From: Candidatus Zipacnadia bacterium
Lineage (GTDB): Bacteria; Armatimonadota; Zipacnadia; Zipacnadales; UBA5352
NCBI GenBank assembly: GCA_029820295.1
Contig: JALGVA010000047.1
Coordinates: 1 to 32,384, forward strand
Length of the DNA: 32,384 bases
Direction: 5' to 3'
Every line of letters starts with the position of its first letter. Positions within the stretch are counted from its first letter, which is position 1. The notes under the pieces were generated by a model that was not told where the DNA came from, ran no database searches, and was given only the letters and a program-made list of their open reading frames with translations. The translations under genes and the position numbers were made by a program. Shown one piece after another: positions 11,299 through 14,779 of the stretch.

Positions 11299-11531
11299 CG
11301 TCGCCGGGGCGGGCGTGAGCGCCTTTCGCACGGCCGCTAAGGTTACGCATTTTCGTACCAGGGTCACGGATTCCCCTGCCACGGCCGTCTCGCCCGCGGG
11401 CGGTTGCCGTGGTCGCATGCAGCGCGGGTAGCGACACCCGCCGGTCGCCGGTGGCCTTGCGGAAGTCGCGCGTAGCCGCCTGCAGTGGCGTATCCCCGGG
11501 CACGGGAGTAAGCAGCGCTTATCTCCGCGCA

Positions 11532-11552
11532 GGTCGAGCATGCCTGCCCGAC
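11532..11552. repeat. Imperfect hairpin similar to the one at 31228
   Basis: The left arm ggtcgagca and right tgcccgac pair with one mismatch around TGCC. It differs by few bases from the perfect hairpin ggtcgggca/tgcccgacc after the YprB-like gene. It sits 13 bases beyond the stop of the Gp37/Gp68-like gene, where a terminator would be expected. The 266-base gap 11299-11564 otherwise shows no gene. Confidence 0.4.
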
Positions 11553-11564
11553 GCCGCTGCCGCG

Positions 11565-12296
11565 TCAAGCCACACAGCCGGACGCATCGACGCCCGCGGG
11601 CATGGCGTCCCAGGTGCGACCGAGAAGCTCGCGGCCGGCGGCCTTCTTGTTGACGCCGCCCCACTGCTTGAAGAAGAACGGGATGCGGCGCGCGTCGGCA
11701 GCGGCCTTGAGCGCCAACACCCACTCCTCGGCCATGGGCCGCGCGCCCGGCCCCGACTCTCCGCCCACGATCACCCAATCGATGCCCGTCAGGTCCACGT
11801 TGACAATCGGCCCGATGAGCGGCTCGAAGGAGACGAAGCGCAGCGCCGCGGGCACCCGGCGCAGGTGGTCGAGGCGGAAGGTGTAGTCCTGGTTCTCGAC
11901 GCTGACGCCCGCCCAGACGTTGTCCGGCCAGTCGATGCCCGGCGCGAGTTGGGCCATGCGCCCGGGGCGCTTCGTGAGCACCTGGAAGATGTGGTGGTCG
12001 GCGGCGCGCATGGTGGCGAAGACGCGCCGGATGAAGTCGAGCGGCACGTGCCGGTGGAACAGGTCACTCATGGAGTTGACGAAGATGATGTGCGGACCGG
12101 TCCACTCCAGCGGATCGGCGAGGCACTCCTCGTGGGTGACGACCTCAAACTCGCGGGCGTACTTGGGCTGGCCCATGGCGCGCAGCCGGCGCGCCATGCG
12201 CTCCGCGTAGCAGTTGTCGCAGCCCGGGCTGATCTTCGTGCACCCGGTTACCGGATTCCATGTGCAGTCGGTCCACTCGATCTGTGAGAGCGTCAT
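11565..12296 (-). CDS. Three-Cys-motif phage Gp37/Gp68-like protein (DUF5131), TcmP partner
   Basis: The product has 243 residues and matches the Gp37/Gp68 (DUF5131) family: SQIEWTDCTWNPVTGC, then CTKISPGCDNCYAERMA with Cys19, Cys26 and Cys29 as a compact three-Cys motif thought to hold a 4Fe-4S cluster like radical-SAM enzymes. Also present are HIIFVNSMSDLFH, VLTKRPGRM, the VSVENQDYTFR strand, FVSFEPLIGP, WVIVGGESGPGARP and FFFKQWGG, all conserved in the family. ATG 12296 is chosen over ATG 12302: AGGAGGG ends right at the upper ATG but six bases from the lower, and 12296 forms an ATGA overlap with the tcmP stop. It is the second gene of a coupled pair. The target of the pair is not known. 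Probably acquired. Confidence 0.9.
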   Translation of the reverse strand: MTLSQIEWTDCTWNPVTGCTKISPGCDNCYAERMARRLRAMGQPKYAREFEVVTHEECLADPLEWTGPHIIFVNSMSDLFHRHVPLDFIRRVFATMRAADHHIFQVLTKRPGRMAQLAPGIDWPDNVWAGVSVENQDYTFRLDHLRRVPAALRFVSFEPLIGPIVNVDLTGIDWVIVGGESGPGARPMAEEWVLALKAAADARRIPFFFKQWGGVNKKAAGRELLGRTWDAMPAGVDASGCVA

Positions 12297-13423
12297 GACC
12301 ATCCCTCCTTTCGAGGCGGGAACGTCACCATGACCTCATCAGCGAAAGTCCGCTTTCCTTCCCTCATGCGCCGCTGCTCCGCAGGCGGTTGAGCCACGAT
12401 CACTCCCTCTTCCTCCATCTGGCGAAGCACATCCTTGTAGTTCTTCTTCACGAACGGAGTCCCCACTTGGTGCTTCTCGAAGACTTGCTTCATTGAGAGA
12501 GTCCGTCCGGCGAAGTGCTCTAGAAGCAGGTCCCGAAGATCACTAAGGGGCCGCGCGTACTCGAAGAGTATTCCGTAGCGCTGGTCGGCTGGGTTGTACT
12601 CGAAGCGAGGCACACCCTCCCCGGCGCCTGAACTCTCGCGTGCCATGATGTCTTTCATTATCGTGTAGCCCTTGACGTGTCGACAGACGTGGATCAGGTG
12701 GTGACTCGCGCGAGTGCCCTCTTGATTCCTCACGCGGAACGGCAGCCCAAAGTCCATGCCCCGGCGCCTCAATGCCTGGACGAATTCCTCAACCACGGCC
12801 AACTCCCTGTCCACGCGCCTGAACGCCTCAATGCGCGCGCGCACTGCGGGCCAGTCGGCCGCGCCAAAGAGGAACTCCATTCTTGGCTGGACGCCCAGAT
12901 TCGAGACGGCGAGGTTGATGCGGTTGGTGTTGAAGAAGACGATGCACTCGCGCGCGAAGCCCGCAGTAAGAGTGCCGATCAGGTCCAACGAAATGCCGCT
13001 GTAGCCAAAGGGATCAAGGAAGGTGATCGTCGGAACTTCCGGCAGGGCTGCGAGGAGTTGTGCATCATCGCGGCCGACGGTGAGATTGAGGGTCTTCGGA
13101 TGGTGGCGGAGTTGGGCGATACCGGGAATGGACGCGATGTTGTTGACCAAGTGCTTGTAGGTGTCGCTGTCGGAGTCGTTGAACACCGTGATGAGATGCT
13201 TGCGCAGCCGGGAGTCGCTGATCGCGCGTTGCAGGATCAATAGCGGGACCGAGAGCGTGCCGTCCTCGTACTTCCCGCGCCCCGCATAGAAGTCTGCGTA
13301 GCATACGTCTCCTGTGGTGCGTGACAGCATGACGTTTGACCAAGCATCGAAGTACTTGTCAACTATCGTGATCTTCACGCGCGACGCGTCGCTGGGCAGA
13401 TCCCAAAAGTCGTTCTCTGTCAT
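12293..13423 (-). CDS. tcmP: Three-Cys-motif partner protein TcmP
   Basis: The product has 376 residues, of the family repeatedly found beside Gp37/Gp68 three-Cys proteins. Visible hallmarks are VKITIVDKYFDAWSNVM, the D-F-Y-A-G-R-G loop (about 44-50, placed like motif I of a Rossmann methyltransferase), TFLDPFGYSGI (DPFG 137-140, like a DPPY-type motif), the RMEFLFGA segment and a winged-helix-like C-terminus (LSMKQVFEKHQVGTPFVKKNYKDVLRQMEEEG). ATG 13423 has GGGGGAGG just upstream. Base composition is visibly less GC-rich than flanking genes, pointing to transfer. It overlaps its partner by four bases (ATGA). A LexA-like palindrome lies upstream. Methyltransferase activity is an inference from fold motifs, not demonstrated. 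Confidence 0.92.
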   Translation of the reverse strand: MTENDFWDLPSDASRVKITIVDKYFDAWSNVMLSRTTGDVCYADFYAGRGKYEDGTLSVPLLILQRAISDSRLRKHLITVFNDSDSDTYKHLVNNIASIPGIAQLRHHPKTLNLTVGRDDAQLLAALPEVPTITFLDPFGYSGISLDLIGTLTAGFARECIVFFNTNRINLAVSNLGVQPRMEFLFGAADWPAVRARIEAFRRVDRELAVVEEFVQALRRRGMDFGLPFRVRNQEGTRASHHLIHVCRHVKGYTIMKDIMARESSGAGEGVPRFEYNPADQRYGILFEYARPLSDLRDLLLEHFAGRTLSMKQVFEKHQVGTPFVKKNYKDVLRQMEEEGVIVAQPPAEQRRMREGKRTFADEVMVTFPPRKEGWS

Positions 13424-13445
13424 GGTTCCTCCCCCTGCACCGGCA

Positions 13446-13461
13446 TCGAACATCTATTCGA
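13446..13461 (-). promoter_or_regulatory. LexA (SOS)-box-like palindrome upstream of tcmP
   Basis: TCGAAC-ATCT-ATTCGA lies 22 bases before the tcmP ATG. It matches the mycobacterial / Gram-positive-type LexA operator TCGAAC-N4-GTTCGA at 11 of 12 fixed bases. The site would sit over or next to the promoter, suitable for repression. This is inference from the sequence alone; the LexA site preference of this organism is unknown. Confidence 0.45.
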
Positions 13462-13468
13462 TACCAGT

Positions 13469-14779
13469 CTAACCAGCGGCCCGCTCCGTGTCAAGCACTC
13501 CGAGCATCACATCCGTCACCGTCTCCGCGTCGGAGGTGCTGGCGCCGGCGAGGCCGTGGGTCCAGAGCAGGAACAGGCGGTCAATGGCGTTGTGGCCGAC
13601 CGGACGCTCCAGGCTCGGGCCCCAGTTGGGCAGCGTCGGGTCGGGCTCGGAGACGCGCTGCACCGCGAAGCTGTCGCCCAGATCGTCGGAGACCAGCAGG
13701 TAGATCTCCTTGCTCGGGTCCACCCAGTTGCCACGCTCGCCCACCCCCGCAGCGATGTAGAGCCGTCCGCCCGCGATGGTCGCCACGTTCGGCTGCGAGA
13801 AGCGCGGCGGGAAGCCCGCCGCCGCCTCCACGAACGGGCGCAGCGAGATGCCCTCCCAGCCCTCCCGCCAGCGCCACAGCACCAGGTCGGTATCCTCCTC
13901 GGAGTGCACCACCGGGAAGTAGGGCCGCGACTGCTCGTCGCATACCACGTTGCCCGCGCGCAGGTCCAGGCCCTCGCCCAGCTCGATCATCGCGCCGGGC
14001 GTCCGCGGCGTGACCGGCAGCGAAAGCTCCGTCCCGTCCATGAGCGTCCAGGTGTCGCCGCCATCGCGCGAGACCATGTGCCCGGCGGCCTTGCCCGCCG
14101 CCGGGTGCATGTCATACACGTGGAAGACCAGGTGCAGCGAGCCGTCGGGCGCCACCGTCAGCGCGTTGCCGAACTGCGTGTAGCCATCCGGCACCGCGGC
14201 GCTGACCAGCTCGCGCGGCTTGGTCCACTCCCCGCCCGCCGGTCGGCGCTGGTACATCACCCGGCAGGGCACGTCGCCGCCGCGGTAGGCGATGTGCAGC
14301 GTGTCGTGCGCATCGCAGACGAGCGACGGATAGGTACACTTGTAGCCGAACTCGGGCAGGGCCTCCCACCCGGAGGCATCGTTGGGCCGCGCCGAGCGCG
14401 CAAACTGGAAGGGCCCGTGGTGCGGGCCGAAGACCACGTAGAGGTAGCCCCGTGAGTCGGCGCACGTCGCCGGCCCGGCGTGGTTGTCCACGCCCGAGCC
14501 GATCAGCACCGGCGCGCTGATCTCGCCGGTCGCGTGGTCATACGTGACGACCATGGTGTCGGCCAGCGCGTCCAGCCAGGTGATGTGCGTGCGCTCGCCG
14601 ACGGTCAGGATCTTGTTGCTCATGTCATACAGCGACGCGCGGGTCGAGCCGTGCTGCGACAGCATCACGATGCGTTCCACGGTCACCGGCAGGTCTCCCT
14701 CCTGGGCACAGGCGCACGCCGACAGCAGCGCGAACGCGATAGCAGTCACGATTGTGGCGCCGCTGGTCGTGCGGAACAT
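13469..14779 (-). CDS. BNR_4-type beta-propeller lipoprotein (sialidase-like fold)
   Basis: The product has 436 residues. The N-terminus TAIAFALLSACAC carries a lipobox-like L-S-A-C (Cys22), so it may be a lipoprotein, or be cleaved by signal peptidase I before QEGD. The body is a BNR_4 domain: VDNHAGPATCADSRGYLYVVFGPHHGPFQ, YKCTYPSLVCDAHDTLHIAYRGGD, DGYTQFGNALTVAPDGSLHLVFHVYD and a Asp-box-like SRDGGDTWTL. Successive G-x-L-H/Y-x-V-F strands mark the blades. Family members bind or hydrolyse polysaccharides such as ulvan or alginate fragments; catalytic residues are not certain here. Start ATG 14779 has GGGAG nine bases upstream; ATG 14816 is an alternative. It ends 45 bases before the tcmP start. 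Confidence 0.82.
   Translation of the reverse strand: MFRTTSGATIVTAIAFALLSACACAQEGDLPVTVERIVMLSQHGSTRASLYDMSNKILTVGERTHITWLDALADTMVVTYDHATGEISAPVLIGSGVDNHAGPATCADSRGYLYVVFGPHHGPFQFARSARPNDASGWEALPEFGYKCTYPSLVCDAHDTLHIAYRGGDVPCRVMYQRRPAGGEWTKPRELVSAAVPDGYTQFGNALTVAPDGSLHLVFHVYDMHPAAGKAAGHMVSRDGGDTWTLMDGTELSLPVTPRTPGAMIELGEGLDLRAGNVVCDEQSRPYFPVVHSEEDTDLVLWRWREGWEGISLRPFVEAAAGFPPRFSQPNVATIAGGRLYIAAGVGERGNWVDPSKEIYLLVSDDLGDSFAVQRVSEPDPTLPNWGPSLERPVGHNAIDRLFLLWTHGLAGASTSDAETVTDVMLGVLDTERAAG

Follow-up and report, generated by a model that had tools for sequence, protein, structure and literature searches.

The window, a stretch of 32,384 nt from a Candidatus Zipacnadia bacterium genome, contains two adjoining genes on its minus strand (Table 1). 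The first encodes a three-Cys-motif partner protein, TcmP, scoring 158.5 bits against TIGR04474 (cut-off 53), and the second encodes a DUF5131 protein, scoring 333.9 bits against PF07505 (cut-off 28.9). The final 10 bases of tcmP are shared with the DUF5131 gene, and we therefore treat the pair as one operon. The tcmP promoter overlaps the 3′ end of a BNR-repeat gene that runs in the same direction, and the first three bases of its −10 hexamer double as that gene's stop codon.

Table 1. Genes and promoter elements at the tcmP-DUF5131 locus (window positions)
Feature	Position	Strand	Basis
tcmP, three-Cys-motif partner protein, 376 aa	12293..13423	-	TIGR04474 E 2.9e-46; PF22560; fold
DUF5131 gene, 245 aa	11565..12302	-	PF07505 E 7.5e-100; fold
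BNR-repeat gene upstream of tcmP (context, outside the system)	13469..14779	-	PF15892
Putative LexA-box core TCGAACATCTATTCGA (TCGAAC-ATCT-ATTCGA)	13446..13461	.	sequence
Extended palindrome TATCGAATAGATGTTCGATG around the core	13463-13444, read on the minus strand
-35 hexamer TTGACA	13489..13494	-	promoter scan
-10 hexamer TAGACT	13466..13471	-	promoter scan
Ribosome-binding site GGAGG of tcmP	13428..13432	-	sequence

Read along the minus strand, TTGACA is followed by 17 bases, TAGACT, 2 bases, the palindrome TATCGAATAGATGTTCGATG, GGAGG and the ATG. A promoter scan across 2.3 kb (positions 11400-13700) found this tcmP promoter alone, where 0.1 were expected. The palindromic box starts 2-4 bases past the −10 hexamer and covers the expected transcription start of tcmP, so that it lies in or adjoining the core promoter, the placement by which a LexA operator is recognized. 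The longest open reading frame call starts tcmP at 13453, which would make the box part of the coding region; we prefer the ATG at 13423 because the ribosome-binding site GGAGG favors it, and the gap between box and start codon is then 22 bases. A sequence-only reading of this DNA had described a TCGAAC-N4-ATTCGA palindrome that matches the TCGAAC-N4-GTTCGA operator at 11 of 12 fixed bases, 22 bases before the start codon, and both the match (an A replaces a G once) and the distance are borne out. The palindrome is real, and it is best read as a LexA operator.

The LexA consensus established by experiment in Streptomyces venezuelae is tCGAAC-N4-GNNCGa (PMC9380542). The tcmP box shares with TCGAAC-N4-GTTCGA operators their dyad, their spacing, their place in the core promoter and their presence before lexA; it differs from them in the single A for G, in having tcmP-DUF5131 as its target and in being a predicted operator. 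Taken by itself, the tcmP operator is an ordinary LexA box.

Within the window, the tcmP box is the sole match to TCGAAC-N4-GTTCGA at up to one mismatch. Genome-wide (5.63 Mb), a search for the 12-base core that tolerates one mismatch gives 10 places, compared to 6-8 for a reversed control, which is not above chance. Because the core is too weak to tell a box from chance, we added flanking bases to obtain an extended 16-base motif, TATCGAAC-N4-GTTCGATA, which the tcmP box matches at 14 of 16 positions. The extended motif occurs at 8 places genome-wide when up to three mismatches are allowed (1 in the control), and at only four places when up to two are allowed: the promoter of a DEAD helicase, the promoter of a DUF6504/PHP operon, the tcmP box and a site inside darT. 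The three-mismatch group includes a dinB-like polymerase gene, with its box directly past the −10 hexamer as at tcmP. The remaining three-mismatch sites (L027, L028 and L029) look unconvincing; the one in L028 (G000:C252) lies over the 5′ part of a frame for the C-terminal half of an XcyI-type restriction endonuclease.

The darT site is a perfect 20-base LexA-type palindrome (L003:1499-1518; G000:C2:3328-3347) within the reading frame, at about codons 32-38, and a macro-domain (DarG-like) gene lies downstream. This intragenic palindrome is either a LexA site or a chance product of the codons. A separate site, ACGAACTGTAGTTCGA, lies 5′ of a reading frame in L004.

The genome encodes one LexA, whose sequence carries Ala-Gly, Ser and Lys at what we take to be the positions expected for self-cleavage. 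The sequence-only reading had proposed that this gene's own upstream box be compared to the one at tcmP, and the lexA promoter does carry a box of the same type, TCGAACGGGCGTTTGC, 103 bases before the ATG. The form TCGAAC-N4-GTTTGC precedes lexA in all 10 genomes of the family, and TCGAAC-N4-GTTTG[AC] precedes it in the order and class mates G251, G256, G258, G262, G263 and G247. In this genome the box also stands in the promoters of the DUF6504/PHP operon, the helicase and the dinB-like gene, and in family genomes it recurs upstream of the corresponding helicase and DUF6504 genes. In six of these genomes (L014, L078, L081, L082, L088 and L092), the core promoter of the conserved DEAD-box helicase gene contains a LexA box. 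The recA gene of this genome is without a LexA box; such a box before recA is common, yet not obligatory, in an SOS regulon. The recurrence that had been anticipated is seen before lexA and before two other tcmP genes of the family, and is missing before recA here. The lexA box, the family tcmP boxes and the DUF6504/PHP, dinB-like and helicase sites together support reading the palindrome as a LexA operator. A literature search under Armatimonadetes found no SOS paper.

TcmP itself has a GMT-wHTH domain, and the palindrome might instead be the protein's own operator, bound through its winged helix in an autoregulatory loop. We judge this extremely improbable, since the motif also precedes lexA and other SOS genes, even in family genomes that have no TcmP.

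TcmP is found in 45 of 291 genomes of the phylum, and a match is absent from 7 of the 10 family genomes. The upstream scans covered all 45 tcmP 5′ ends found, which come from 44 of the 45 loci (L068 has no 5′ end); control windows were drawn from the same loci, excluding those that contain the observed site. At up to one mismatch, the core is present only in the window, G273 and G270, and in 0 of 1624 control windows. In all three genomes the box lies 4 to 11 bases after a TTGAC[AC]-17-TA[GT][AC]CT promoter. Both of the other tcmP-bearing family genomes have retained box and promoter despite a low TcmP identity to the window (54% in G270 and 40% in G273, with DUF5131 at 76% and 81%, respectively). 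The pair adjoins the same TIM-barrel gene in all three, and the BNR gene intervenes in the window only. The proposal that the palindrome would be conserved before tcmP homologs is correct for three of three genes in the family; most other lineages are without a matching box, and it is found in none of four tcmP genes from named relatives outside the phylum set. The shorter dyad AAC-N4-GTT lies within 160 bp of tcmP in 8 of 45 cases, compared to 92 of 4462 control windows, and two of the eight (G196 and G209) look like chance.

It could be argued that the palindrome is a chance near-palindrome, functionless and merely situated in front of tcmP. The 12-base core with one mismatch is indeed no commoner than its reversed control, and perfect or near-perfect sites also occur within genes (L015 and L003). 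Nevertheless, we consider an accident very unlikely, given the excess of the extended motif over its control (8 versus 1), the presence of the box at every family tcmP gene and in no control window, and its position just past the −10 hexamer at all three.

Other lineages of the phylum have other LexA boxes. Where LexA has the helix SLRGVTVHL, the lexA promoter mostly carries GTAGAC, for example GTAGACCTATGTCTAC in G228. The lexA promoters of this second LexA type (G079, G100, G135 and others) often show just the GTAGAC half clearly, with a −10 hexamer after it. The tcmP promoters of G079, G100 and G175 carry GTAGAC-N4-GTATAC; G175 was assigned to this second box type from its lexA promoter alone, not from its LexA helix. 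Exact GTAGAC-N4-GT[AC]TAC sites occur at 4 (G079), 3 (G100) and 2 (G175) genomic places, the tcmP site among them, and another such site in G079 precedes recA.

A third form, GCAAAC-N4-GTTTGC, lies between the −35 and −10 hexamers of the tcmP promoters of G214 and G215. It also precedes lexA and a DUF1848 gene in G214, and an IMS-family gene and uvrA in G215. DUF1848 genes adjoin these boxes in both genomes (L158 and L159); in G215, one of them and tcmP are transcribed away from each other on either side of the box. G214 also has an additional DUF5131 gene elsewhere (L156; G214:C40), with GCAAAC-N4-GTTTGC over its 5′ end, a pattern that hints at DUF5131 as the member of the pair that is regulated.

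A formal test of covariation between the tcmP box and the LexA helix type points in the right direction, yet it is weaker than the single cases suggest: among 33, there are 6 matching and 1 crossing when two mismatches are tolerated (p 0.042-0.055, uncorrected for relatedness). Eight LexA loci that the helix pattern did not match were dropped (G281, G214, G215, G209, G019, the first of G015, G175 and G002), as were three genomes without a usable lexA match (G039, G239 and G141). G175 and the two f40 genomes, with local-type boxes, are uncounted because the helix pattern missed their LexA.

In actinomycetes, TCGAAC-N4-GTTCGA at up to two mismatches lies upstream of 10 of 21 DUF5131 genes (69 of 2815 control windows). 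These 21 genes come from 7 of the 8 TcmP loci (L194 has no annotated DUF5131) and from 14 of the 60 records listed among 379 matches; the 14 were picked for breadth ahead of any reading of the upstream DNA, and many of the 21 are from Streptomyces and not independent. Most sites are 130-170 bases upstream of the start as annotated, and a perfect dyad lies 18 bases before a Rhodococcus DUF5131 gene. Upstream of actinomycete tcmP, the box is found in 0 of 9. DUF5131 and tcmP are convergent in most of the actinomycete plasmids read, and each gene therefore has a separate promoter.

Among viral DUF5131 loci the TCGAAC type shows no enrichment, with 2 of 77 compared to 1.6 expected. A near-perfect Escherichia coli-type SOS box, TACTGTACGTTTAAACAGTA, lies just before a viral DUF5131 start (L216:1967-1986); striking single viral sites such as this one and those in L217, L246 and L257 are anecdotes. 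The box is present in 0 of 4 Pseudomonadaceae plasmid copies and 1 of 4 alphaproteobacterial plasmids. From the negatives among viral, plasmid and named-relative copies, we conclude that LexA control is recurrent but does not accompany the pair everywhere.

With the site, its promoter, a cleavable-looking LexA, the operator of lexA itself and the recurrence of the box before tcmP and SOS genes all found by computation, the case that the tcmP-DUF5131 operon is under LexA/SOS regulation is well supported, and we hold it to be very probable. LexA bound to an operator over the transcription start would keep the operon off. Upon DNA damage, RecA filaments would provoke the self-cleavage of LexA, and the operon would be expressed. 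Binding, repression and damage induction at the tcmP box are here predicted from sequence.

We now turn to the two proteins. The predicted structures are of similar confidence (pLDDT 86 for DUF5131 and 87 for TcmP). Six spore photoproduct lyase (SPL) entries rank first for the DUF5131 model (Z 13.0-13.4, rmsd 2.9-3.0 over 196-197 residues), followed by RlmN (Z 11.2) and viperin (10.9). The predicted fold is therefore radical-SAM-like and nearest to SPL, although a shared fold alone shows no function. Three DUF5131 cysteines, C21, C28 and C31, are invariant and spaced CX6CX2C; the SPL motif CX3CX2C is absent from DUF5131 and present in SPL-family proteins of the phylum. The SPL profile TIGR03886 has two weak matches in this genome, on contigs C94 and C26, and none at the DUF5131 gene (C44). 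Given this motif spacing and the family profile, we do not place DUF5131 in the SPL family. An hhalign comparison of DUF5131 to SPL aligned the Cys motif alone, with no significant sequence similarity, and a sequence search of solved structures returned nothing for DUF5131 at E 0.1.

The TcmP model is nearest to RlmJ, the 23S rRNA A2030 N6-methyltransferase (Z 16.8-17.5; next family 14.2), which the same search of solved structures found at E 0.08. TcmP combines this RlmJ-like methyltransferase fold with a C-terminal GMT winged helix. While RlmJ is the closest solved fold, the two share 11-13% identity, the winged helix is extra in TcmP, and the TcmP alignment carries LDPFG or a variant in place of what is presumably the RlmJ motif, DPPY.

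In alpha- and betaproteobacteria, the SPL homolog gene splB has already been proposed to be under SOS control (PMC3323433). Both splB and DUF5131 have a LexA box before a gene of the same fold, predicted in the case of DUF5131; DUF5131 differs in having CX6CX2C instead of CX3CX2C, no significant similarity and a methyltransferase-fold partner. Because a LexA-like box stands in front of the pair, and because the DUF5131 fold is near that of a DNA-repair enzyme, the pair probably takes part in the damage response. The sequence-only reading had reasoned that damage induction would hint at the pair's job; most likely it is an SOS-induced module that acts on damaged or modified nucleic acid. More tentatively, and with somewhat less than even confidence, we propose that DUF5131 acts as a radical-SAM-fold enzyme on a damaged or modified base in the manner of SPL, and that TcmP, with its adenine-methyltransferase fold and winged helix, acts on that nucleic acid too, by binding or methylating it.

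The same operator could serve a different substrate, with the pair modifying tRNA or rRNA in a stress response. The nearest solved fold to TcmP is an rRNA methyltransferase, ahead of the next family, and an RNA enzyme, RlmN, is second for DUF5131. However, all six SPL entries rank before RlmN, and LexA control favors a DNA substrate; we regard an RNA target as rather unlikely.

The main rival to repair or nucleic-acid editing under SOS is anti-phage defence, in which the operator is real and an SOS signal raised by infection switches the pair on. The pair is spread across several phyla, plasmids and phages, with DUF5131 on 161 phage records and many plasmids. Both proteins match the PADLOC candidates PDC-M30 and PDC-M41 (TcmP at 6.4e-15 and DUF5131 at 2e-107 to the PDC-M30 protein models), which comprise the same two protein families and are filed as candidate phage defence without tests. 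In Sinorhizobium, one study lists a tcmP gene beside the Hna defence helicase (PMC12445080). On the other hand, the PDC systems, whose names come from genomic embedding, are unvalidated (PMC10855318), with no mention of LexA control in what is available of that source, and both the DUF5131 fold and the fellow LexA-box genes point to repair. Our reading is that repair or nucleic-acid editing under SOS is preferred and defence, at perhaps a minority chance, is the alternative; the two are not mutually exclusive.

In the literature searched on TcmP, DUF5131, LexA, SPL, DUF1848 and PDC-M30, which included few subscription papers, LexA control of the pair was not found. As far as these searches reach, three things are new: the placement of the pair under LexA, its recurrence under different boxes, and the resemblance of the DUF5131 fold to SPL. 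There is perhaps a minority chance that the pair represents an unrecognized SOS-induced pathway of repair or nucleic-acid editing, made of a compact radical-SAM enzyme that reverses a base lesion in the manner of SPL and a winged-helix partner with an adenine-methyltransferase fold; the operator of this pathway would have changed along with the LexA specificity of its host. The analysis gives the pair a testable cue, DNA damage, and testable folds, an SPL-like radical SAM and an RlmJ-like methyltransferase; it sets repair clearly against phage defence as the role of tcmP-DUF5131, and it predicts which type of LexA box is used in several of the phylum's groups.
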